NCBI GenBank assembly: GCA_001768125.1
Contig: MENB01000077.1
Coordinates: forward strand, 1 to 10,177
Length of the DNA: 10,177 nt
Direction of reading: 5' to 3'
From: Armatimonadetes bacterium RBG_19FT_COMBO_69_19
GTDB taxonomy: Bacteria > Sysuimicrobiota > Sysuimicrobiia > Sysuimicrobiales > Kaftiobacteriaceae
Shown piece by piece: positions 1 through 10,177 of the stretch. Position 1 is the first letter of the stretch, and every line of letters starts with the position of its first letter. The position numbers and the translations under genes were made by a program. The notes below the pieces were generated by a model. That model made no database searches. It saw only the letters and a list, made by a program, of their open reading frames with translations, and was not told the DNA's origin.

Positions 1-654
1 GAGATGACGTATGAGGAGATCCAGGCGGCGACGGAGGAGGCGCACAAGGCGGGCAAACACGTTGCCGCCCATGCCCATGCCACCGTGACGATCAAGGACT
101 GCCTGCGGGCCGGCGTGAACACCATCGAGCACGGCCGGTATCTGGATGAGGAAGCTGCGTCGCTGATGGCGCGGGCAGGGGCCTTCCTCGTGCCGACCCT
201 GTCGATTGCCCGCTCCATTGCCTACCGAGGGGAACAGTGGAACACCCCGCCGGATGCCGTTGAGTATGCGCGACGCGCTCTGAAGGCCGCCGAGGCCGGG
301 GTACGCCTGGCGCGCGAAGCCGGCGTGCGGATCGCCGTCGGCACCGATCCGCCGCGGCTGGACACCGTGCCGATGGAGTGCGAGGCGCTGGTGGAGGCGG
401 GGCTTACGCCCATGGAAGCGATCGTGGGGGCCACGTTGCGAGGCGCGGAGATCGTGGGGCGGGAGCAGGATTTCGGTACGGTGCAGGCGGGCCGGCGGGC
501 CGACCTGGCCGCGTACGCCGCCAACCCGCTTGACGACATCCGCGTGCTCGCGCAGGTGGAGTTTGTCATGAAGGACGGGATGACCGTGAAGGCGCCCGTG
601 GATAGGGGCGAGCACGTGACCGGCGGCGCCGCGCGCAGGGGGAGGGCACACTGA
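1..654 (+). CDS. Amidohydrolase, C-terminal part (5' end outside window)
   Basis: This is the 3' portion of a metal-dependent amidohydrolase of the imidazolonepropionase/Xaa-Pro dipeptidase-like group. The frame is already open at base 1 (Glu codon). The ATG at base 4 is an internal Met, because the same residues occur about 196 residues into the complete neighbouring paralogue. Visible TIM-barrel landmarks are the strand-5 His in HVAAHAH, the strand-6 His in NTIEHG, and the strand-8 catalytic Asp in VGTDPP. These are followed by the usual tail (GAEIVGREQDFGTVQAGRRADLA, then NPLDDI), where the metallo-barrel returns to the small beta domain. The N-terminal HxH and the bridging Lys lie upstream of the window. 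The enzyme probably hydrolyses a dipeptide-like or cyclic amide bond in the cytoplasm; no secretion signal can be judged. It differs from its neighbour around the strand-5 loop (HAHATVTIKD against HAMCTEGILN), which may change substrate preference. Its stop overlaps the next start by one base, so the two are surely co-translated. Confidence 0.9.
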   Translation, partial: EMTYEEIQAATEEAHKAGKHVAAHAHATVTIKDCLRAGVNTIEHGRYLDEEAASLMARAGAFLVPTLSIARSIAYRGEQWNTPPDAVEYARRALKAAEAGVRLAREAGVRIAVGTDPPRLDTVPMECEALVEAGLTPMEAIVGATLRGAEIVGREQDFGTVQAGRRADLAAYAANPLDDIRVLAQVEFVMKDGMTVKAPVDRGEHVTGGAARRGRAH

Positions 655-1862
655 TGGCAGCGGAGGGACAGCGGTTGGTGGTGCTGGCAGGGACGCTGAT
701 CGACGGGACGGGGACGGACCCGCTGGAGAAGGCGGCAATCGTCATTGAGGGCGGGCGTTTCAGCCAGGTGGGGCCACAGAACAAGATCAAGGTGGACCGC
801 AAGGACGGCGCGGTGCTGGACCTGAGCGACCGGGTGGTGCTGCCGGGGTTGATGGACGCGCACTGCCACTTCTACCACATGTACCGGAACTACTACGAAG
901 AGAACACCGTGGCGTTCGTGGCCCGAGCGATGCAGAACGCGGGGATGTGGCTGGACATGGGCGTGACCACGGTGCGGGAGATTGGGACGCGGGAGAACCT
1001 GGACCTGGGGTTGCGGGATGCGATCGCCGCGGGGCTGGTCCGGGGGCCGCGGATCTTTGCGAGCGGGACGGCGCTGGCGGCGACGGGTGGGGGGCCGGTG
1101 CTGGACGCGCCGCGGCGGTTCGTCTTCGAGATCACGGGAGCGGACGAGGCGCGGCGGGTGGTGCGGAAGCAGCTGCGGGCGGGGGTGGACTTCATCAAGC
1201 TGTTCACCACCGCCGGCGCCCCCTCCGGGCGGCCGGAGATGACGTATGAGGAGATCCAGGCGGCGACGGAGGAGGTGCACAAGGCGGGCAAACACGTTGC
1301 CGCCCACGCGATGTGCACAGAGGGCATCCTAAATTGCCTGCGGGCCGGCGTGAACACCATCGAGCACGGGAACGGGGTGAACGAGGAGTGTGTGGCGCTG
1401 ATGGTCAAGCAGGGGGCGTATCTCGTCCCCACGCTGTCCATCACCTACTCCATGGCCTATCGGGGGGAGCGCTGGAACACTCCCCAGTCAGTCGTCGAGT
1501 TTGCTCGGGGTGAACTGCCCGGGCTGATGGCCGGGGTGCGCCTGGCGCGAGAGGCCGGGGTCAAGATCGCGGCGGGCACCGATCCGCCGCGGCTGGACAC
1601 TGTGCCGATGGAGTGTGCGGTGCTGGTGGAGGCGGGGCTCACGCCGATGGAGGCCATTGTCGCGGCGACGCGCCGCGGCGCGGAGATCGTGGGGCGGGAG
1701 GAGGACTTCGGCACGGTGCAGCCGGGCCGGCGGGCGGACCTCGCGGGTTATGGGGTCAATCCGCTCGACGACATCACCGTACTGCAGCGCGCCGAGCTGG
1801 TGATGAAGGACGGGGTGGTCGTCAAGGACGGATTGGGGCGCCTCGCCGCGTCCGCCGCGTAG
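654..1862 (+). CDS. Amidohydrolase family protein (complete, tandem paralogue)
   Basis: This is a complete 402-residue metal-dependent amidohydrolase, a normal length for the imidazolonepropionase/Xaa-Pro dipeptidase-like group. All expected binuclear-site residues are present in order: H70-C-H72 in LMDAHCHFYH (strand 1), K182 in DFIKLFTTAG (candidate carboxylated lysine), H218 in HVAAHA, H238 in NTIEHG, and D310 in AAGTDPP. Residues 1-60 form the beta-sandwich half (LAGTLIDGTG, LDLSDRVVLPGL), completed by the C-terminal part (GTVQPGRRADLAGY, NPLDDI, VMKDGVVVKDG). There is no signal peptide, so it is likely cytoplasmic. The ATG shares one base with the upstream TGA and has a strong AGGGGGAGGG ribosome site about 7 bases upstream. 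The substrate cannot be read from sequence. Context (M19, M20 and lyase genes downstream) favours a dipeptide or N-acyl/N-substituted amino acid. The gene is roughly 70% identical in protein to the preceding copy by eye. Confidence 0.93.
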   Translation: MAAEGQRLVVLAGTLIDGTGTDPLEKAAIVIEGGRFSQVGPQNKIKVDRKDGAVLDLSDRVVLPGLMDAHCHFYHMYRNYYEENTVAFVARAMQNAGMWLDMGVTTVREIGTRENLDLGLRDAIAAGLVRGPRIFASGTALAATGGGPVLDAPRRFVFEITGADEARRVVRKQLRAGVDFIKLFTTAGAPSGRPEMTYEEIQAATEEVHKAGKHVAAHAMCTEGILNCLRAGVNTIEHGNGVNEECVALMVKQGAYLVPTLSITYSMAYRGERWNTPQSVVEFARGELPGLMAGVRLAREAGVKIAAGTDPPRLDTVPMECAVLVEAGLTPMEAIVAATRRGAEIVGREEDFGTVQPGRRADLAGYGVNPLDDITVLQRAELVMKDGVVVKDGLGRLAASAA

Positions 1863-1868
1863 CCCCCG

Positions 1869-3341
1869 ATGCCGCCTGACCCGTCCAAGACCGCGGTCGA
1901 CCGGTGGCTGCGCGGCCCCCGTCTGGCCGACGACCGTCGCCGCTTTCTCGCAGCGCTGCTAGATATCAATTGCGCGCACGTTGTCATGCTGCGGGAACGC
2001 GGGCTGGTTGCCTCGGATGCCGCCCGCGCGCTCCTGGACGCGAACGAGGGGATCCGGCTGGATCCGGGCCGGCTCGATGCCCATCCCGAGCGCGAAGACC
2101 TCTACTTCACCGTCGAGGCCGCGATCGCCAGCTCGGCCGGGGAGGAAGCCGGAGGCCAGCTGCACATTGGGCGGAGCCGCAACGACATCACCGCCACGAT
2201 GACCCGGATGGTGGTGCGTGATGACGATGCGCGGCTCGGACGCCTCTTGCTCGACGTTATCCGCGCCCTGGTCACCCTGGCCGCCGGGCACGCGCGGACG
2301 CTGATGCCCGGCTACACTCACCTCCGGCCGGGCCAACCGACGACGTTCGGTCACTACCTGACGGGCGTGGCGTGGGCGCTGCGCCGCGACTACCAGCGCC
2401 TGGCCGACGGGCGCGGCCGGGCGGACGAGTGCCCGATGGGTGCCGCGGCCTTCGCCGGGACGGGGTTCGACATCGACCGCGAGCGCATCGCGGCGCTGCT
2501 CGGGTTTGCCCGGCCAGTACCGCATACACAGGACGCTGTGGCATCGCGCGACAGTGTTCTGGAGCTGCTGGCCGGGCTCGCCCTGACCGCGTCCACGCTG
2601 GCGCGATGGATCGAGGATTGGTATGTCTGGTCCACGCTGGAGTTCGGATTCCTCCTCCTCGATCCTGCGATCGCCGGCGGCAGCAGCATCATGCCGCAGA
2701 AGCAGAACCCCAACGCCCTGGAGCGGACCCGGGCGAAGGCTGGGCACGTGGCGGCGGCCCTGCTGGACGCGTTGTTCGCCACAAAGGGAACAGGGTTCAC
2801 GCACGCTCAGGACATCAGCGTGGAGAGTGTGGCGCCGTTCTGGGTGGCGGCGGGCGAAATGGAAGCCATGCTGGATGTGAGCTGCCAGTTGGTCCGCTGC
2901 GTGCGCGTCAACTCCGCACGGATGCGCGAACGTGCTACCTCCGGGTTCACGATGGCCACGGAGATCACCGATGAACTAGTCCGGACGCGGAGGGTACCCT
3001 TCCGCACCGCGCACGGCATCGTCGCCCGGGCGGTGCGCGAGACGGCGGATGGTGATCAGCCAGCCCTTCTGGCGCGGTTGAATGCGGTTGGGGCCGAACT
3101 GGGCCGTCCGCTGCAGGTCACTGAGGCCGAGATCCACGGCTGGATGGATCCGGAGGCGGCCATCGCGCGGCGGCACTCCGGCGGTCCGTCCCCGGAAGAG
3201 GTGGCCCGCCTCCTGGGAGACCTCCGTCAGTGGATCCAGACGGCCGAGGACGAGCTGGAGCAGATCCGGCGCCGCCTGGCCGCGGCGGTAGCCGCCAGGG
3301 AACAGGCGGTGCGGTGCATCCTGGCCGGCGCCGAGGCGTGA
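1869..3341 (+). CDS. Argininosuccinate lyase superfamily enzyme, probably not a true ArgH
   Basis: This 490-residue protein belongs to the fumarase/argininosuccinate lyase superfamily, which eliminates fumarate from N-substituted aspartates or similar substrates. Superfamily landmarks are intact: GRSRND at 101-106, PGYTH with T150-H151, GTGFDIDRERIAALLGF at 197-213, the signature loop GSSIMPQKQNP at 271-281 containing the catalytic serine, and a C-terminal TSGFTMATEITDELVR block. Two regions depart from ArgH. The canonical substrate-loop stretch YNKDLQEDKE reads HAQDISVESV at 312-321, so the Lys and Gln that contact argininosuccinate become Gln314 and Ser317. The N-terminal GGRF and GSxAHA motifs are absent (INCAHVVML instead). 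No argG or other arginine genes are nearby. I therefore infer a relative acting on another N-substituted amino acid, as ethylenediaminedisuccinate lyase does in the same family. The ATG lies 6 bases past the previous stop without a clear ribosome site, so translation is probably coupled. A true ArgH with odd loops remains possible. Confidence 0.85.
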   Translation: MPPDPSKTAVDRWLRGPRLADDRRRFLAALLDINCAHVVMLRERGLVASDAARALLDANEGIRLDPGRLDAHPEREDLYFTVEAAIASSAGEEAGGQLHIGRSRNDITATMTRMVVRDDDARLGRLLLDVIRALVTLAAGHARTLMPGYTHLRPGQPTTFGHYLTGVAWALRRDYQRLADGRGRADECPMGAAAFAGTGFDIDRERIAALLGFARPVPHTQDAVASRDSVLELLAGLALTASTLARWIEDWYVWSTLEFGFLLLDPAIAGGSSIMPQKQNPNALERTRAKAGHVAAALLDALFATKGTGFTHAQDISVESVAPFWVAAGEMEAMLDVSCQLVRCVRVNSARMRERATSGFTMATEITDELVRTRRVPFRTAHGIVARAVRETADGDQPALLARLNAVGAELGRPLQVTEAEIHGWMDPEAAIARRHSGGPSPEEVARLLGDLRQWIQTAEDELEQIRRRLAAAVAAREQAVRCILAGAEA

Positions 3342-3353
3342 CACTTCGGACGC

Positions 3354-3360
3354 GGAGGGG
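3354..3360 (+). promoter_or_regulatory. Ribosome binding site fixing the M19 start
   Basis: GGAGGGG lies 7 bases before the ATG at 3368. It decides this start, because the reading frame stays open upstream into the 3' end of the lyase gene (back to about 3230). That upstream stretch has the composition of a shadow frame and no homology. Confidence 0.75.
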
Positions 3361-3367
3361 GAAGGGT

Positions 3368-4387
3368 ATGAAGCAGATCGCGGTAGATGAAGCGGCGGCG
3401 CGTCGGTTTCATCAGGAGGCCCTGGTGATCAACGCGCTGGACTCCACGCTGGAGGACAAGTTTACGGAGGACTACGTACAGGCCCTGATCGCGGGCGGCA
3501 TCAATGCCCTGAACGTCACCGTTCCCAGGCCGGAGCACCACTTCCGGGACGCGATTCGAGACTATGTGAAGTGGCGCCGCCGGCTGAGCGCGCTGGGTGA
3601 CGCTGTGCGGATCGTACGCCGCGCTGGCGACATCGGCCAGGCCAAAGAGGCGGGGCAGATCGCCGTCATCCTGGGGTTTCAGAATGCAAAGGCCATTGAG
3701 GACGACCTGGCGCTGCTGGAGGTCTTCCACCGTCTGGACGTGCGCGTCGTGCAGTTGACGTATGAGTATCGCAACTACGTCGGCAACGGCGTCGGCGAGC
3801 GCGTGGACGGGGGCCTGAGCCGGTTCGGTGTGGTCGCGGTGCAGGAGATGAACCGGCTCGGGATCGTTGTCGACCTCTCGCACGTAGGAGAGCGATCTTC
3901 GCTCGACGCGGTCGAGGCTTCTTCGGCGCCGGTGATCGTGTCGCACACCGTGGCCAAGGCGGTGCGCAACCACTTCCGCGGGGTGTCGGACGACATCCTG
4001 CGCGCTGTGGCCGCCCGCGGCGGGTGCATCGGCGTGGCGGGTCTATCGCTATTCCTCCGGGACGACGGTGTGGAGCGTGGCTCCACGCTGGCGGACTACG
4101 TGGATCACATGGAGCACATGATCGACGTCGCGGGCATCGACCACGTCGGCATTGGGTTCGACATCGGGTTCAAGCGCACTGAGGCAGACAGCCAGCGTAT
4201 CGCCAGCACGTATCCCGAGTTCGCCGTGAACCCACCCCTCGCGCTCCGCTACGCGACCGAGATCAACCGCGCAGACAAGGTGCCGAACCTGACCGTGGAG
4301 CTGTTGGGGCGCGGGTACCGTGAGGACGACGTGCGCAAGGTCCTGGGCCTCAACTGGTATCGGGTCTTCTCGCAGGTCTGGGGGTAG
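3368..4387 (+). CDS. Peptidase M19 (membrane/renal dipeptidase) family protein with atypical metal site
   Basis: This 339-residue protein has the length and fold signature of the M19 dipeptidase family, a TIM barrel that classically cleaves dipeptides with two zinc ions. Conserved elements are VVDLSH with H172, IVSHT with H193, NHFRGVSDD with R204, GIGFD with D265, and a C-terminal GLNWYRVF. Several canonical ligands are missing. The N-terminal DGHxD motif reads NALDS at 22-26, so both HxD ligands are lost. The bridging Glu of the GxEGG segment is Gln105 in ILGFQNA. The binuclear centre therefore cannot form in the usual way, and at most a mononuclear site around H172/H193/D265 remains. LGFQN appears to mark a divergent M19 subgroup often annotated simply as membrane dipeptidase; this is my recollection, not a search. 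There is no signal peptide, so it is probably cytoplasmic. The gene follows the lyase by 26 bases and abuts the M20 gene, so it is in the same operon. The actual reaction is unknown. Confidence 0.85.
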   Translation: MKQIAVDEAAARRFHQEALVINALDSTLEDKFTEDYVQALIAGGINALNVTVPRPEHHFRDAIRDYVKWRRRLSALGDAVRIVRRAGDIGQAKEAGQIAVILGFQNAKAIEDDLALLEVFHRLDVRVVQLTYEYRNYVGNGVGERVDGGLSRFGVVAVQEMNRLGIVVDLSHVGERSSLDAVEASSAPVIVSHTVAKAVRNHFRGVSDDILRAVAARGGCIGVAGLSLFLRDDGVERGSTLADYVDHMEHMIDVAGIDHVGIGFDIGFKRTEADSQRIASTYPEFAVNPPLALRYATEINRADKVPNLTVELLGRGYREDDVRKVLGLNWYRVFSQVWG

Positions 4388-4421
4388 TGAGCCAGCCGGG
4401 GCCGCGCGCGGCAGCCGGCGC

Positions 4422-4428
4422 GGAGAGG
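4422..4428 (+). promoter_or_regulatory. Ribosome binding site favouring the ATG start of the M20 gene
   Basis: GGAGAGG precedes the ATG at 4432 with suitable spacing (6 bases after GGAG). The competing GTG at 4387 overlaps the previous stop. It has only a weak G-run ahead of it and would add 15 residues that look like untranslated GC-rich sequence. Confidence 0.6.
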
Positions 4429-4431
4429 ACG

Positions 4432-5802
4432 ATGGAGCTCGAGCGGGTCTTTCACCGGATCGACGAGACCTTTGACCGCACCGTGGCGGAGCTGACCGCG
4501 TTCTGCGCCCAGCCGAGCATTTCCGCGCAGGGCATTGGAATGCAGGAGATGGCGGCGCTGGTTGCGGCGCGCTTCCGTGACCTCGGCGCGGACGTCCTCC
4601 CGCACGGCTTCGATTCCGGCTACCCCGTGATCTTCGCCCGACTGGCCGGCCAGAGCCCAAGGAGATTGCTGTTCTACAACCACTATGACGTGCAGCCGCC
4701 GGATCCCCTCGACCAGTGGCGCTCGCCTCCGTTCCAGCCCGAGGTGCGCGATGGATTTTTCTACGCCCGAGGAGCAGCCGACAACAAAGGCTCCCTCGTG
4801 GCGAGACTCGCCGCGCTGCGCGCGTTTCGGGAGGTGACGGGTGGCTTGCCGGTGTCCGTGGGCTACGTGGTGGAAGGCGAAGAGGAAGTGGGCAGCCCCC
4901 ACTTGGTGGCCTTTGTGGATGCCCACCGCGCCGCGCTGACCGGCGACGGATTGATCTGGGAAGGGGCTTCAGCCGACCAGCAGGGGAACCCGGTGTTGCG
5001 CCTGGGGAACAAGGGCACGCTGCATGTCGAACTCCGCGCGACCGGTCCGTCCTCCGACGCCCACGCCCGGTTCGGCGGGATCTTCCCCAACCCCATCTGG
5101 AAGATCGTTTGGGCGCTCGGACTGGTCCGCGGACCAGACGGACGGGTTCGCCTGCCCGGTTTTTACGATTCGGTCGTGCCGCCCTCGCCGGCGGAGGACG
5201 CCCTTTACGACCGCCTCGGTGCGGACGCCGGGCCGCTGCTGGGCCGCTACGGGCTGAAGGCCTCGTTTCCCCCGCGACCGGCCAGGGAGATGATGGTCGA
5301 GCTGTACGCGAGACCCACGTGCACGCTGACCGGTATCGGGGGGGGCTACCAGGGGCCGGGCGGCAAGACAATCGTGCCCTCCGCGGCGTTCGCCAAGCTC
5401 GAGTTCAAGCTCGTCCCGGAGCAGAATCCCGACACGCTCCTGGAGGCCCTCCGCGCCCACTTGGTCGCAGAAGGCTGCGACGTGGAGGTTCAGTTGCTGT
5501 CACGCGGTTACCCCTCGAAAACTCCGCTCGACCATCCTTTCGCCGACCTGGTCCGGGTCACGGGAGAACGCGTGTACGGCCGCCCCTTCACGATCGAGCC
5601 CACCTCATCCGGCACCGGCCCGCGTTACGCGTTCACGCGCTGGTCGTCCATTCCGGTGGTCGCGGTAGGCGGCGCGCACGCTGGCTCGATGATCCACGGA
5701 CCCAACGAGAACATCCAGCTGGAGGAGCTCCGGCTGCACACCAAGCATGTGGCGGCGTTGATGCAGGCGATGGCGGGTGGAGTGGACGCGAGCAGAACCT
5801 GA
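4432..5802 (+). CDS. M20 family metallopeptidase (carnosinase/ArgE/DapE-like dipeptidase)
   Basis: This 456-residue M20 metallopeptidase hydrolyses the amide bond of dipeptides or N-acyl amino acids with two zinc or cobalt ions. The catalytic set is complete: H84 and D86 in FYNHYDVQPPDP, bridging D117 in RGAADNKG, general base and ligand E151-E152 in VEGEEEVGSP, and the C-terminal ligand H422 in GSMIHGPNENI. The lid/dimerisation domain (about 190-310) contains the usual SSDAHARFGG segment with H211. The motif HYDVQPxDPxxxWxxPPF is typical of the M20 dipeptidase branch that includes carnosinases, rather than of DapE. There is no signal peptide. I chose the ATG at 4432 for its ribosome site; a GTG at 4387 overlapping the upstream stop is the alternative. 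It is the last gene of the plus-strand run and ends 4 bases from the convergent permease gene, so no terminator separates them. Unlike the M19 neighbour, it looks fully active and may supply the real dipeptidase activity. Confidence 0.92.
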   Translation: MELERVFHRIDETFDRTVAELTAFCAQPSISAQGIGMQEMAALVAARFRDLGADVLPHGFDSGYPVIFARLAGQSPRRLLFYNHYDVQPPDPLDQWRSPPFQPEVRDGFFYARGAADNKGSLVARLAALRAFREVTGGLPVSVGYVVEGEEEVGSPHLVAFVDAHRAALTGDGLIWEGASADQQGNPVLRLGNKGTLHVELRATGPSSDAHARFGGIFPNPIWKIVWALGLVRGPDGRVRLPGFYDSVVPPSPAEDALYDRLGADAGPLLGRYGLKASFPPRPAREMMVELYARPTCTLTGIGGGYQGPGGKTIVPSAAFAKLEFKLVPEQNPDTLLEALRAHLVAEGCDVEVQLLSRGYPSKTPLDHPFADLVRVTGERVYGRPFTIEPTSSGTGPRYAFTRWSSIPVVAVGGAHAGSMIHGPNENIQLEELRLHTKHVAALMQAMAGGVDASRT

Positions 5803-5806
5803 TTCT

Positions 5807-6733
5807 CTACCCAGAGCTTTTGCTGGCGGCACGCAGGCGCAGCCGCGGATCCAGCGCGTCACGCAAGCCGTCTCCTAACAGGTTGATCGAGAATACGGTC
5901 AGCATGATGGCGAGGCCCGGAAAGAACGTCACCCACCACGCGTAGATGAGGAACTCCTGGCCCTCGGCCAGCATCTTGCCCCACTCCGGCGTTGGTGGCT
6001 GTACCCCCAGGCCGAGGAAACTCAGCGCCGAGGCGGTGATGATTGCGCTGGCGATGCGCAGCGTGGCCATCACCACGAGCGGCGCCATCACGTTGGGCAG
6101 GATGTGTCGGAACATGATGTTCGACTCGCGATACCCGAGCGCCCGGGCCGCCAGAACGAACTCCTGTTCCTTGGCGCTGAGGACCATTCCCCGCGTCAGC
6201 CGCACGTAGTCTGGGATAGAGGCGATGCCGACGGCGATCATCAGGTTGACCAGGCTGCCGCCCAGGATGGCGATGATGAACAGCGCCAGTAGGATGCCGG
6301 GAAACGCCAGCATCAAGTCGACCATCCGCATGATCACCGCCTCCATCCGGCCCCCCCGGTAGCCGGCGATGAGCCCCGAACTGACGCCGATCGTGGCGGC
6401 GATGCTCACCGAGATGAGCCCTACCGGGAGCGTTGTGCGTCCACCCCAGAGGACGCGGGAGAAGACGTCGCGGCCGAAGCGGTCGGTGCCCATGGGGTGG
6501 GCGCGGCTCGGCGGCGTCAGGGCTTCGCCCTGACCGATCTTGAGCGGGTTGTAAGGACTCAACCGGGAAGCGGTGAGGGCGGACAGAACGATGAGGAGCA
6601 GCACAACGCTGCCAACCAGCGCGCTCCGGCTCTGCCGGAAGCGGCGGATCGCGAGCGCTGTCGGCGTACGACGGGGGCGGTCCCGATCTGTCACGTTTGT
6701 CGGCGGGGAAACCGCTAGGCGCGCCACGGACAT
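5807..6733 (-). CDS. DppC/OppC-type ABC transporter permease
   Basis: This 308-residue inner-membrane permease belongs to the peptide/nickel (PepT) ABC import family and forms the channel with the DppB-type partner encoded just upstream. Seen directly: a positively charged N-terminus, a first membrane segment at about 38-56, the DppC hallmark HPMGTDRFGRDVFSR at 79-93, several further hydrophobic segments (about 103-123, 138-160, 162-174, 219-240, 265-288), and the cytoplasmic EAA loop that docks the ATPase (EFVLAARALGYRESNIMFRHILPN, 191-214). The tail LGDGLRDALDPRLR is typical. The start is slightly uncertain. The ATG has GGAGG only 2 bases away, whereas a GTG two codons later (6727) has an ideal 8-base spacing; the product is almost the same. 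It lies 9 bases after the DppB-type gene in one operon. No ATPase gene follows; the next gene is convergent. Confidence 0.93.
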   Translation of the reverse strand: MSVARLAVSPPTNVTDRDRPRRTPTALAIRRFRQSRSALVGSVVLLLIVLSALTASRLSPYNPLKIGQGEALTPPSRAHPMGTDRFGRDVFSRVLWGGRTTLPVGLISVSIAATIGVSSGLIAGYRGGRMEAVIMRMVDLMLAFPGILLALFIIAILGGSLVNLMIAVGIASIPDYVRLTRGMVLSAKEQEFVLAARALGYRESNIMFRHILPNVMAPLVVMATLRIASAIITASALSFLGLGVQPPTPEWGKMLAEGQEFLIYAWWVTFFPGLAIMLTVFSINLLGDGLRDALDPRLRLRAASKSSG

Positions 6734-6742
6734 TTCCTCCCA

Positions 6743-7666
6743 CTAGTCATACCGCACCCGCGGATCGACGGCGGCATACGCGACGTCGACGACCAGGTTC
6801 ACGAGCAGGAATGACACTGCCGCAAACAGCACGATGCCCTGGACCATCGTGTAGTCCCGATTGAGGATGGAGGTCACGGTCAGGCGTCCCAGCCCGGGGC
6901 GGGAAAAGACCATTTCCGTCGTCACCGCCCCTGTCATCAGATGGCCGAACTGAAGGCCGAGGATCGTCACGGTCGGGATGAGGGCGTTCTTCAGGGCGTG
7001 GCGCAAGACCACGACCCGAGGCGCCAGGCCCTTGCTGCGTGCGGTGGTGATGTAGTCCTGGCGGAGGACCTCCAGCATGCTGGAGCGGACCAGCCTGGCC
7101 AAGATGGCCGCCGAGGAGAGACCCAGGGCTAGCGCCGGGAGCACAAGGCGTTCCATACCCCCCTGGCCGGTGGCGGGGAACCACGCCAGGCGGAACGAGA
7201 AGAACAGGATCAGCAGCAAACCAGAATAGAACGTGGGCATGGAGACGCCCACCATCGCCACGGCCATGGCGGACGTATCCACCCACGATCCGTGCATCAC
7301 CGCGGCCACGATGCCGAGGACGGTGCCGACGAGTACGGCAACCACCATCGCCGCCATCGTCAACTGAAACGTCCCCGGCAGGGCCTGCAGGATGCTATCC
7401 CGCACCGACCCCCGGTGCCGCATGCTGATCCCCAGGTCGCCGCGGGCCAGGCGCCATATGTAGTCTGCGTACTGTACCCACACGGGACGGTCCAATCCGA
7501 GCAGGCGCCTGATCTGGGCGGTGAGCTCCTCGCCCAGCGGCGTATCCCCCGCGTAGATGAGTGCCGGATCGCCCGGGATCAGGTGCAGCATGGAGAAGGT
7601 GAGGAGGGAGATCCCGATCAGAACGGGGATGACGTGGATCAGGCGCTGTGCGATGAACCTGTGCAT
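6743..7666 (-). CDS. DppB/OppB-type ABC transporter permease
   Basis: This 307-residue inner-membrane permease of the peptide/nickel ABC import family is the first of the two channel subunits. Family hallmarks are visible: the N-terminal membrane segment IPVLIGISLLTFSMLHLIPGDP (13-34), LGLDRPVWVQYADYIWRLARGDLG (56-79), central membrane segments at about 103-124, 134-158 and 173-192, and the EAA loop DYITTARSKGLAPRVVVLRHALKNALIP at 204-231. It also has VFSRPGLGRL (253-262) and the C-terminal DPRVRYD. The ATG is preceded by GGAG with 5 bases spacing. It follows the solute-binding protein gene across a 115-base gap holding a strong inverted repeat, and is followed 9 bases later by the DppC-type gene. 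Substrate cannot be read from a permease; the neighbouring hydrolases suggest peptides or peptide-like compounds. Confidence 0.94.
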   Translation of the reverse strand: MHRFIAQRLIHVIPVLIGISLLTFSMLHLIPGDPALIYAGDTPLGEELTAQIRRLLGLDRPVWVQYADYIWRLARGDLGISMRHRGSVRDSILQALPGTFQLTMAAMVVAVLVGTVLGIVAAVMHGSWVDTSAMAVAMVGVSMPTFYSGLLLILFFSFRLAWFPATGQGGMERLVLPALALGLSSAAILARLVRSSMLEVLRQDYITTARSKGLAPRVVVLRHALKNALIPTVTILGLQFGHLMTGAVTTEMVFSRPGLGRLTVTSILNRDYTMVQGIVLFAAVSFLLVNLVVDVAYAAVDPRVRYD

Positions 7667-7724
7667 GCACGCTCCGGCTCGGCCCGTGCCTTCTTCGCAA
7701 CCGCTGGCAGTCCTCCTGGCAGGC

Positions 7725-7758
7725 GTCCGGCAGCGGCGAGGCGTCGCCGCTGCCGGAC
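7725..7758 (-). repeat. Perfect 15-bp inverted repeat (intercistronic hairpin)
   Basis: Bases 7725-7739 and 7744-7758 are exact reverse complements around a 4-base loop, giving a very GC-rich 15-bp stem. It lies on the minus-strand transcript between the binding-protein stop (7782) and the DppB-type start (7666). No T-run follows in the transcribed direction, so it is not a classical intrinsic terminator. The position matches hairpins that protect the binding-protein part of an ABC-importer mRNA, or partly attenuate transcription, so that binding protein exceeds permease. That role is inferred. Confidence 0.8.
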
Positions 7759-7781
7759 AGAGGGGGAGGGGTCCGTACGCC

Positions 7782-9494
7782 TTACTTGTTCAGCCAGATG
7801 TTGTACCAGATCGTCGTGGCGCCCAGGCCGTCGACGGTCTCACCCATGACTTCGGCCCGCTTGGCATGGGTCATCAGGGAGTGGGTGAACGGGATGCCAA
7901 TCGCGTCCCGCATGATTTGCCGCTGCACGTTGGAGTACAGCGGCTTGCGTGCGGCCTGGCTCACCAGTCCCATGGCATCGTCGAGCCACTTGTCCACCTG
8001 CGGGTTCGAGTAGAAGGAGCGATTGTAGATTCCTCTGGTGTACGCGACCTCCCGGAGCATGTCGGGGTCGCTCTGCGGATCCCATGTGTACACGCCCTCG
8101 TAGTTGCGGCCGAGAATCGCGGTGCGCTGTGCCGCGACTTCCAAAGCCAGAAGACGGCAGTCGAAGCCCACGTCGTTCAAGTTCGCCTGGATGTACTCCG
8201 AGCGCGGCTCGTCCCTGCGGGCGCGGAAGACGAGGTCGAAGGTCAATCGCTCTCCGCCCTTCTCGCGCACACCGCCGCGTCCCACCTTCCAGCCGGCCTC
8301 ATCCAAGATTTGCTTCGCCCTGGCCGGGTCGTACTTGAACATGCCGGCCGCAACCCGGTCATAGCCCCAGGACAGTGGGGAGATGAAGTTCCAGGCAGGT
8401 TTGCCGGTTTCCCCGTAGATGGTCTTGGTCAGTCCCGCGCGGTCGACGGCGAAACAGGCCGCCTGCCGGACGGCCAGTTCCGCTGTGCGGGCGGGCTTCC
8501 CGGTGTCCGTCCGGGTGCTCATGTTGAGCAGCAGTGAGTGCGGAATGCCGTTCTGCTCCTGCTGAATGACGACAATGCCCCGGTTACGCTGCAGCGCGCG
8601 GAGCCCGAGCGGATCCACGCTCTCGATGAAGTGGACCTCCCCGGTCCGTAGCGCGCCCACCCGCACGGTGGATTCCGGGACGATCTTGATGATCACCGCG
8701 TCCAGGTAGGCCGGCCCGTTGCGACTGAACCCCGACGACGCCCAATTGTAGTTCGGGTTCTTGACGAGCGTGATGTGGTCGTTGGGGACGAACTCACGCC
8801 ACACGAACGGCCCTGTCCCGACGGGGTTGAACAGGAATTTCGCGTCCCCCATCGTCCGGACGGCCGTGGGGGATACGATCCCCAGATAGCCGTTCAGGTA
8901 GCCGAAGAATGGCGCGTAGCCGCGGCGCATGACGATGCGCGCGGTGTACTCATCGACGACGTCCGTCCGCTCGTACGGGCCGAGGTTGCCCCGGGCCGCG
9001 CCGGCGATCATCGTCGGGCTGACGATGCGATCCATGGTGAACTTCACGGCCTCGGCGTTGAACGGCGTGCCGTCGTGGAACCGCACACCTTGTTTGAGCT
9101 TGAACGTGAACGTCGTGGCGTCGGGGGAGACGGTCCAGGATTCGGCGAGGGCGGGGTAGTACCGGCCCGGGCCCAATTCCCAGACCAGCGGCTCGCAGAC
9201 GTGCGCCGTGATCTGCCGCACGGATGTGAAGGTCGTGGCCGCCGGATCGAACCGGTCGTCCACGCTGACCACTGCATACACCAGCGTCCCGCCGGCCTTG
9301 GGCGCAGGCCCGCCGGGGGCCGCCGTCACCCGCTGGAGGGGTAAGAGTCTGCCCGTGACAGAGGTGGCGGCCGCTGCGGCAGCGCCCGCGCTGACGAAGG
9401 CCAAGAACTCACGCCGGTTCAGCCTTCGAAACTGCATCCCCCGGGTGACCTGATCCAAGGTAAGGGGCTGATCGTGGTCGTCAGGCTTGCGCAT
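7782..9494 (-). CDS. ABC transporter solute-binding protein, family 5 (peptide-type), Tat signal
   Basis: This 570-residue extracytoplasmic binding protein of solute-binding family 5 (DppA/OppA-like) captures the substrate and delivers it to the permeases encoded next in the operon. It starts with a long charged N-region, then a twin-arginine motif NRREFL (26-31), an Ala-rich hydrophobic stretch (32-46), and a likely cleavage near TAAPGG (57-62). This predicts export folded through Tat, and no lipobox Cys is present. Family features are LAESWTVSPDATTFTFKLKQG (116-136) with VRFHDGTPFNAEAVKFTMDR, FNPVGTGPFVWREF (222-235), LVKNPNYNW (243-251), VRQAACFAVDR (342-352), and YDPARAKQILDEAGW (388-402). 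The start at 9494 is fixed by AAGGAGG 7 bases upstream; the frame stays open to 9986 but has no homology there. It is the first gene of the operon, driven by the promoter near 9659-9688. Ligand unknown. Confidence 0.93.
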   Translation of the reverse strand: MRKPDDHDQPLTLDQVTRGMQFRRLNRREFLAFVSAGAAAAAATSVTGRLLPLQRVTAAPGGPAPKAGGTLVYAVVSVDDRFDPAATTFTSVRQITAHVCEPLVWELGPGRYYPALAESWTVSPDATTFTFKLKQGVRFHDGTPFNAEAVKFTMDRIVSPTMIAGAARGNLGPYERTDVVDEYTARIVMRRGYAPFFGYLNGYLGIVSPTAVRTMGDAKFLFNPVGTGPFVWREFVPNDHITLVKNPNYNWASSGFSRNGPAYLDAVIIKIVPESTVRVGALRTGEVHFIESVDPLGLRALQRNRGIVVIQQEQNGIPHSLLLNMSTRTDTGKPARTAELAVRQAACFAVDRAGLTKTIYGETGKPAWNFISPLSWGYDRVAAGMFKYDPARAKQILDEAGWKVGRGGVREKGGERLTFDLVFRARRDEPRSEYIQANLNDVGFDCRLLALEVAAQRTAILGRNYEGVYTWDPQSDPDMLREVAYTRGIYNRSFYSNPQVDKWLDDAMGLVSQAARKPLYSNVQRQIMRDAIGIPFTHSLMTHAKRAEVMGETVDGLGATTIWYNIWLNK

Positions 9495-9501
9495 TGCCTC
9501 G

Positions 9502-9508
9502 CCTCCTT
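9502..9508 (-). promoter_or_regulatory. Ribosome binding site fixing the binding-protein start
   Basis: On the minus strand AAGGAGG, a near-perfect Shine-Dalgarno, sits 7 bases before the ATG at 9494. It decides the start, since the frame remains open for another 164 codons upstream. Confidence 0.85.
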
Positions 9509-9525
9509 CAAGAGTGGGCCAGACT

Positions 9526-9540
9526 GCCCCGATCTGGGGC
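9526..9540 (-). repeat. Small hairpin in the 5' leader of the ABC operon
   Basis: GCCCC (9526-9530) and GGGGC (9536-9540) flank a 5-base loop, giving a 5-bp GC stem about 32 bases before the start codon and 18 bases before the ribosome site. A stem this short is common by chance in GC-rich DNA, so a regulatory role is only possible. Confidence 0.3.
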
Positions 9541-9658
9541 GGGTGTTCTGCGGGCGGGTGCTTCTGGTGGGTGGTCATGACGCGTTGCCCCGGCGGTCGC
9601 GTACCTGCGATCCGTGCGAATCCTTGCGTTCGAGTCCGAAGCCAGGTAGATTGATGGT

Positions 9659-9688
9659 ATGTTACAACAAATACCCGATTTCTGTCAA
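9659..9688 (-). promoter_or_regulatory. Sigma-70-like promoter for the ABC operon
   Basis: Read on the minus strand, a perfect TTGACA (-35; plus-strand 9683-9688) is followed after 18 bases by TAACAT (-10; 9659-9664, 4 of 6 consensus bases). It lies in the only AT-rich patch of the window. The predicted start of transcription near 9652 leaves a leader of about 158 bases before the binding-protein gene. The remaining divergent gap (9495-9746) shows no other clear operator. A weak plus-strand pair (TTGCGT at 9624, TAGATT at 9647, 17-base spacer) might serve the small gene and amidase, but is not convincing. Confidence 0.6.
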
Positions 9689-9734
9689 TGCGGGAGTCTG
9701 GCCTCCTGAGCAAGGCCGGCCACCGGTGAAACCT

Positions 9735-9741
9735 GAGGGGG
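9735..9741 (+). promoter_or_regulatory. Ribosome binding site for the small amidase-partner gene
   Basis: GAGGGGG stands 5 bases before the GTG at 9747. It favours that start over the GTG at 9726, which has only a poor, distant AAGG. Confidence 0.5.
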
Positions 9742-9746
9742 ACGTC

Positions 9747-9929
9747 GTGCTCCACGTCAGGGCCGCGCTGGCCGACTGGGGGGTGCAGATCGGCGACGAC
9801 GAGGAATGCGTGGAGGTGGCCCGGCGCCTGCGTGTGCTGATGGGGCTTCTGCAGCGTCTGATGGAGCAATATCCGGACGACCCACGCGCGCTTGTTCCTC
9901 CCGGATTCCCGCCGCCGGGAGCGAAATGA
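9747..9929 (+). CDS. Small protein, probable accessory subunit of the adjacent amidase (AtzG/DUF4089-like)
   Basis: This 60-residue protein begins LHVRAALADWGVQIGDDEE, continues as an amphipathic helix rich in Leu, Val and Arg (about residues 19-40, CVEVARRLRVLMGLLQRLME), and ends in a Pro-rich tail (PDDPRALVPPGFPPPGAK). Length, the two-helix layout with a short acidic turn, and position directly before an amidase-signature gene recall AtzG/DUF4089 proteins. These bind and complete the amidase AtzE, as GatC does for GatA. The resemblance is by pattern only; I see no diagnostic motif. Its TGA overlaps the amidase ATG (ATGA, 9926-9929), which implies translational coupling and a stoichiometric complex. 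The start is a GTG at 9747; a GTG at 9726 would add 7 residues. The frame is open further upstream, but that part covers the promoter region. Confidence 0.6.
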   Translation: MLHVRAALADWGVQIGDDEECVEVARRLRVLMGLLQRLMEQYPDDPRALVPPGFPPPGAK

Positions 9930-10177
9930 GAGGGATGTCGGCGGAAGACATACTGTACGCGGGGGTGGCGGACCTGGGGCAGGCATACCGCGCGCGGCAG
10001 CTGAGTCCTGTGGAAGTCGTCTCAGCGCACCTGGCCCGCATCGCGGCAGCGGATCCTGATCTCCACGCCTACATCACGGTGACGTCCGAGCGGGCCATGG
10101 AGCAGGCGCGGCGGGCGGAGCGGGCGTTGCGCTCGGGTAGTGACCGCGGGGCGCTGCACGGCATCCCGTACGCGATA
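9926..10177 (+). CDS. Amidase signature family enzyme, N-terminal part (3' end outside window)
   Basis: These are the first 84 codons of an amidase-signature hydrolase, which cleaves amides with a Ser-cisSer-Lys triad. Visible family features are an N-terminal helix region DLGQAYRARQLSPVEVVSAHLARI (16-39), then DPDLHAYITVTSERAMEQARRAERAL (43-68), and the GALHGIPYAI segment (75-84). That segment directly precedes the catalytic Lys, which falls just past the window end. The Ser residues are also outside. The ATG overlaps the small upstream gene's stop by 4 bases and has GGGAG 4 bases ahead; an ATG three codons later is less well placed. The small partner protein argues for an AtzE-like amidase working as a heteromer, while GatA is less likely. 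Substrate is unknown; amides, carbamoyl or biuret-type compounds fit the family. Confidence 0.88.
   Translation, partial: MRGMSAEDILYAGVADLGQAYRARQLSPVEVVSAHLARIAAADPDLHAYITVTSERAMEQARRAERALRSGSDRGALHGIPYAI

Follow-up and report, generated by a model that had tools for sequence, protein, structure and literature searches.

Ethylenediamine-N,N'-disuccinate (EDDS) lyase from Chelativorans sp. BNC1 (PDB 6g3d) adds amines to fumarate in vitro and thereby yields N-substituted aspartates, as described in its report (PMC12363623). The same organism is the source of EppA, a binding protein for ethylenediaminetetraacetate (EDTA) of the NikA/DppA/OppA-like superfamily; according to that study, uptake of other aminopolycarboxylates besides EDTA may occur, and EDDS was docked (PMC7312458). 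Here, a lyase gene (1869..3341, plus strand) of Armatimonadetes bacterium RBG_19FT_COMBO_69_19 is described. The analyzed window comprises bases 1–10177 of the 11,517-base contig C77, and the genome (2.24 Mb in 190 contigs) is estimated to be 80.8% complete. The encoded protein of 490 amino acids (the query) was assigned to the non-ArgH branch of C–N lyases with argininosuccinate lyase (ASL) fold on the basis of its open reading frame (ORF), Pfam matches, alignment and predicted structure. It stands on the same side of the ASL tree as EDDS lyase, and it shares the fold and the catalytic Ser, Thr-His and Arg-Asn with ArgH.

This enzyme is likely a catabolic C–N lyase, most probably splitting an N-substituted aspartate other than argininosuccinate into fumarate and a free amine or amino acid. 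The reading is based on a separate argG–argH pair, the tree position of the lyase, the rejection of ArgH placements, profile scores and pocket changes fixed in its clade, and further on the rank of EDDS lyase among structural matches, the length of the C-terminal tail, the frequency of importers near paralogs and the tight gene run. A similar locus in genome G021 also speaks for it, as does the binding protein of the window, which belongs to the same superfamily as EppA from the source organism of EDDS lyase.

Relation to canonical ArgH and to paralogs

The canonical argH of the genome (554.3 bits, TIGR00838) was found directly after argG (527.8 bits, TIGR00032) on contig C189. Since this pair is encoded on another contig, the window lyase would be a second, non-arginine lyase, and it is probably not the arginine enzyme. 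With 341.7 bits, the query passes the TIGR00838 cut-off of 279.5 bits, so that an annotation pipeline would name it argH. The initial annotation had seen no arginine biosynthesis genes nearby, and indeed no arg gene family was present among the window proteins scanned. It had also regarded the lack of any other argH as speaking against a different substrate; the pair on C189 removes this objection.

In a FastTree phylogeny of 213 rows, the query and seven metagenomic relatives (P0002–P0008, with 80, 69, 60, 58, 57, 52 and 44% identity) formed a clade of eight with a support of 100, and the half of the tree shared with EDDS lyase (99 rows) had a support of 99. Omitted from this tree were P0001 (the protein of the window itself, 99% identical), L024 (from the same contig as L112 of G021), L110 (a fragment) and L111 (the window genome's own ArgH again). 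After addition of 24 mostly plasmid-borne rows (237 rows), the query half was supported at 64 when EDDS lyase was included and at 86 when it was not; L114 switched sides, and two of the added rows (L128 and L133) fell on the ArgH side. IQ-TREE analysis of 66 chosen rows separated a group of 22 ArgH rows, L129 and L136 from the remaining 42 rows at a Shimodaira–Hasegawa-like approximate likelihood ratio support of 100. In this tree, L114, L128 and L133 were back on the paralog side, and the query clade (support 100) shared its side with the paralogs and EDDS lyase, the latter on a long branch (1.31) away from it. Placement of the query clade within bacterial or archaeal ArgH was rejected by the approximately unbiased (AU) test (p 0.00188 and p 0.0104, respectively); thus, the clustering inside ArgH that had been named as counter-evidence was not observed. 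Hidden Markov models built without the query clade scored the query with 539.9 bits (108 paralogs) versus 416.0 bits (115 ArgH rows). Because of the trees, AU tests and profile scores, the query appears to lie outside known ArgH, perhaps beside ArgH, and EDDS lyase is best regarded as a branch-mate, not a near relative.

The clade of the query is distinct and seemingly rare, but of a known kind. In two genus mates (one 99% complete), the best match shared 38 or 35% identity with the query, and these matches (L106 and L107) fell with ArgH in the tree. At an E-value of 1e-120, three of the 43 genomes of the phylum carried such a relative, namely the window's own genome, G021 and G033, and L112, L113 and L114 from the latter two belong to other subclades in IQ-TREE. 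A scan of genome contigs with the query alone gave 16 pattern matches and no relative. With alignment A1, 80 loci were kept among 593 matching stretches; nine of those listed were on the paralog side (including L024, which is on the contig of L112), the others being ArgH. A search for the query clade (alignment A2, E 1e-125) gave no positive among 400 genomes from the G046 phylum, with at most three candidates scored per genome; such an empty result proves nothing. In the phylum of G049, 2 of 398 genomes were positive (L155 and L156), both outside the query clade.

Substrate pocket, fold and catalytic residues

The ORF 1869–3341 carries the intact catalytic frame that the initial annotation had ascribed to it, with SRND at residues 103–106, T150-H151 and GSSIMPQKQNP at 271–281. 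Two Pfam matches were above cut-off (PF00206, Lyase_1, 151.7 bits; PF14698, ASL_C2, 39 bits), and R104-N105, T150-H151, S272-S273, K278, N280 and E285 were retained in an alignment of 237 sequences. We take the Ser (S272 as the base), Thr-His, Arg-Asn, Lys and Asn to have the catalytic roles they hold in the ASL fold. Judged by profile and catalytic residues, the query is a member of the ASL/fumarase superfamily.

The pocket was compared on the same alignment, in which 121 rows are on the ArgH side, including six from catabolic-looking loci (L114, L128, L129, L130, L133 and L136). Pocket positions (Tyr323, Gln328, Lys331 and Asp293) are given in what we assume to be delta-crystallin numbering. 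From residue 312 onwards, the query reads HAQDISVESV where the ArgH equivalent is YNKDLQEDKE (codons 312–322, HAQDISVESVA, at 2802..2834, plus strand, counted from 1869). H312 stands at Tyr323, S317 at Gln328, V321 at Lys331 and N282 at Asp293, with a one-residue insertion; hence the Tyr, Gln, Asp and usual Lys of the ArgH pocket are replaced. In the N-terminal GSxAHA motif, correctly described before as altered, N34 stands at the Ser, with A36 and H37 unchanged. Since H312, S317 and N34 were fixed in all eight clade members, with identities of the relatives from 80 down to 44%, the unusual loop is genuine and beyond chance, and a chance change or frameshift artefact was ruled out by this clade with its conserved pocket.

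On the ArgH side, Tyr323 was found in 117 and Gln328 in 115 of the 121 rows, while the Ser of GSxAHA occurred in only 85, with Asp in 31. Tyr323 and Gln328 clearly appear to be the better ArgH markers, because neither Lys331 nor the GSxAHA Ser is universal there. The alignment includes 119 listed relatives, of which 86 lacked both the loop Tyr and Gln and 33 had both; the query half of the tree likewise holds 86 of the 119. The AH motif at the N-terminus carries Asn in 88 of 108 paralogs. On this alignment, the altered loop marks a broad paralog branch and not this locus. Taken together, H312, S317 and N282 suggest that the amine portion of the substrate does not resemble the guanidinium group of argininosuccinate.

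Could the query nevertheless be a second, diverged argininosuccinate lyase, still in arginine metabolism or kept as a spare ArgH? Two results weaken the case for a non-arginine role. First, Lys331 is present in 86 of the 121 ArgH-side rows and replaced by Thr in 30, so the loss of this Lys alone is weak evidence, and variation in the pocket is by itself no bar to the argininosuccinate reaction. Second, the grouping of the query clade with all ArgH together was not rejected (AU test, p 0.312), although it was absent from the best tree. The score above the TIGR00838 cut-off fits a spare ArgH as well. On the other side stand the canonical argH adjoining argG, the absence of arg families from the scanned window proteins, the rejected nesting in bacterial and archaeal ArgH, and the replacement of Tyr323 and Gln328 by His and Ser throughout the clade, with Asn for Asp293 in the query. 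A spare ArgH is therefore quite unlikely. With regard to the initial annotation, both the loop Lys and Gln are replaced as claimed, and the argument from Gln (and Tyr) is strong, but that from Lys alone is not diagnostic. Its non-ArgH reading is favored by the second lyase besides canonical ArgH, the other pocket and the branch of EDDS lyase, with the sister position to all ArgH left unrejected.

When the predicted lyase model was compared with solved structures using Foldseek, EDDS lyase ranked first, with template modeling scores of 0.84–0.87 over four entries and 30% identity. The alignment (model residues 20–489) extends through the whole C-terminal tail; after G438, this tail has a median length of 51 residues in the query clade versus 24 on the ArgH side. 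The Z score in VIA-align was equally high for ArgH and EDDS lyase. The loop Gln and Lys are absent from both EDDS lyase and the query. However, Q159, D290 and Y320 of EDDS lyase, located near the substrate according to PMC12363623, correspond to H151, N282 and H312 of the query. As these residues differ, the query being an EDDS lyase proper was dropped.

Residue Q279 (codon 2703–2705), which the initial annotation had not remarked on, is found at the second Lys of QKKNP, a position that is Lys or Arg in every one of the 229 rows not belonging to the query clade; within the clade, Gln occurs in five and Arg in three of the eight members. This restriction of Gln279 to the query clade would fit an elimination that involves a different leaving group or acid (C–S, C–O or another amino-acid backbone) and whose product would not be fumarate, as would similarity below cut-off to models of the 3-sulfopropionylcysteine synthase XcbD, nitrosuccinate lyase and cycloisomerase. 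Such a reaction is unlikely, given that the Arg-Asn, Thr-His, Ser, Lys and Asn, which presumably hold the fumarate half, are kept. Moreover, EDDS lyase, the characterized member of the branch, uses fumarate and N-substituted aspartates according to its report (PMC12363623).

Gene run of the window and neighborhoods of related lyases

The lyase lies in a run of five co-directional plus-strand genes with junctions of −1, +6, +26 and −1 bases. The run opens with the 3' part of a Xaa-Pro dipeptidase-like amidohydrolase (1..654; ORF list and profile matches), which is cut by the contig start. The start of a second amidohydrolase (Amidohydro_1; 654..1862) overlaps the stop of the first by one base, and its gene ends 6 bases before the lyase. 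Its best solved matches were Xaa-Pro dipeptidase 2qs8 and L-Arg carboxypeptidase 3mtw, and it scored below the cut-off of the NCBIfam Xaa-Pro dipeptidase model. With 73% identity over 201 residues, the two amidohydrolases represent a tandem duplication inside the run. Located 26 bases downstream of the lyase is the gene of an M19 membrane-dipeptidase-family protein (3368..4387; profile and structure-library matches), followed by that of an M20-family peptidase (4387..5802); provided that the GTG start in the ORF list holds, this gene shares one base with the M19 stop. The M20 peptidase best matched the metallocarboxypeptidase Sso-CP2 (4mmo), then dipeptidases.

Convergent with this run, the minus strand encodes an OppC/DppC/NikC-type ATP-binding cassette (ABC) permease (5807..6733) and an OppB/DppB/NikB-type ABC permease (6743..7666), both identified by profile matches, and a NikA/DppA-like family-5 solute-binding protein (7782..9497; start approximate, with the ORF open to 9986). 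No ATPase gene for the importer was found among the window proteins scanned. An amidase starts near the right end of the window, and its part past the window includes N stretches. The top NCBIfam model of the binding protein was NikA, with 205.6 bits and thus below the cut-off of 393 bits; nickel import was considered and dropped. Regarding solved structures, the binding protein was far closer to 5u4o (2.8e-50) and NikA 4oer (2.5e-38) than to EppA 6wm6 (5.4e-11). The EppA system, which serves aminopolycarboxylate use according to PMC7312458, resembles the window importer in having a NikA/DppA/OppA-like binding protein and two permeases.

Near related lyases, an importer solute-binding protein was encoded within 4.5 kb at 16 of 25 paralog-side loci, as compared to 2 of 60 ArgH-side loci. 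The latter count excludes L129, L130 and L136 and becomes 5/63 when they are included; fourteen loci whose flanks were short did not enter the comparison. Without plasmids, the values were 5/10 versus 2/59. The contrast was much weaker when any transporter-type match, including lone ABC ATPases, was counted (16/25 versus 17/63). Fifteen of the 25 paralog loci are plasmid regions, derived from 20 chosen among 60 listed rows of 269 records, two being unannotated. The reference set, from which self hits were excluded, came mostly from paralog loci and misses the binding protein of the tripartite ATP-independent periplasmic (TRAP) transporter of L022, which was seen by Pfam.

In G021, from the same phylum, another paralog is found near a solute-binding protein–OppB–OppC set, a PTE-family protein and an M20 peptidase. 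L117 (G033:C280, 2263–7333) adjoins an M20 peptidase, an MmgE/PrpD protein, which we take to be of the iminodisuccinate epimerase family, and an Opp-type ATPase; its lyase clusters with or near EDDS lyase in the trees. The paralogs with catabolic neighbors (for example, P0009–P0038, Ammoniphilus L022, Clostridia L023 and the plasmid loci L118–L122) share with the query the lack of loop Tyr and Gln, the long C-terminal tail and frequent importer neighbors. However, they are only 37–45% identical to it, and neighbors such as asparaginase, SIS, MmgE/PrpD and opine-dehydrogenase-family proteins differ from those in the window and hint at other conjugates.

In L022 (4876–9533), L120 and L122, the lyase paralogs adjoin asparaginase and SIS proteins, and in L120 and L122 amino-acid ABC importers and MmgE/PrpD are also nearby. 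By analogy, this layout recalls fructose-asparagine clusters, and the lyase there could free fumarate from an Amadori aspartate. Paralogs in L022 (11494–16379) and L023 (5784–12191) adjoin a GntR regulator, a TRAP-type transporter and an octopine-dehydrogenase-family protein, the last of which hints at opine-like conjugates. Sugar-ABC operons contain the paralogs of L126, L131 and L132; the L126 operon also has ROK and nagB genes, and that of L131 encodes a PfkB kinase. On plasmids of Burkholderia, Chelatococcus and Shinella (L129, L130 and L136), ArgH-side lyases are located near amino-acid ABC importers, MmgE/PrpD and polysaccharide deacetylase genes, possibly an independent recruitment from ArgH itself. 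At L127 and L137, paralogs adjoin ATP-grasp and pyridoxal phosphate (PLP)-dependent enzymes, with adenylation-domain genes resembling those of nonribosomal peptide synthetases also in L137; these loci look biosynthetic.

The two plasmid loci with ATP-grasp and PLP-dependent genes, together with the in vitro addition of amines to fumarate by EDDS lyase (PMC12363623), would accord with a synthetic direction, i.e., amine addition to fumarate yielding an N-substituted aspartate. For the query, this direction is highly improbable, since the other proteins of the window are hydrolases and importer parts and no ligase or ATP-grasp family was found by Pfam among those scanned.

Proposed route and its meaning

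Given the established predicted fold, residues, genome context and branch of the lyase, we infer fumarate release, a catabolic direction and an order of steps as follows. The NikA/DppA/Opp-type importer would take up an aspartate conjugate, which may be opine-like, aminopolycarboxylate-like or peptide-linked. The prolidase-like amidohydrolase pair, along with the M19 and M20 peptidases, would open its amide bonds. The lyase would then cleave the remaining C–N bond with S272 as the base, yielding fumarate and an amine, and loop 271–281 would close over the substrate during elimination. The released fumarate would enter the tricarboxylic acid cycle.

More tentatively, the query clade and the wider paralog branch may represent a large, mostly unrecognized group of lyases that degrade N-substituted aspartates, each accompanied by a dedicated importer and a particular set of unwrapping enzymes. 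These would be peptidases here and asparaginase plus SIS, opine-dehydrogenase-family or MmgE/PrpD proteins elsewhere, and the window version would end an undescribed route for peptide-linked aspartate conjugates. The source names of the listed relatives were argininosuccinate lyase in every visible case except P0110. No description of a catabolic ArgH-paralog branch was found in the titles and abstract beginnings searched, which is no proof of its absence from print. If such paralogs release fumarate from other aspartate conjugates, carbon and nitrogen sources are hidden behind one wrong name, and C–N lyases for making N-substituted aspartates could come from this paralog branch.
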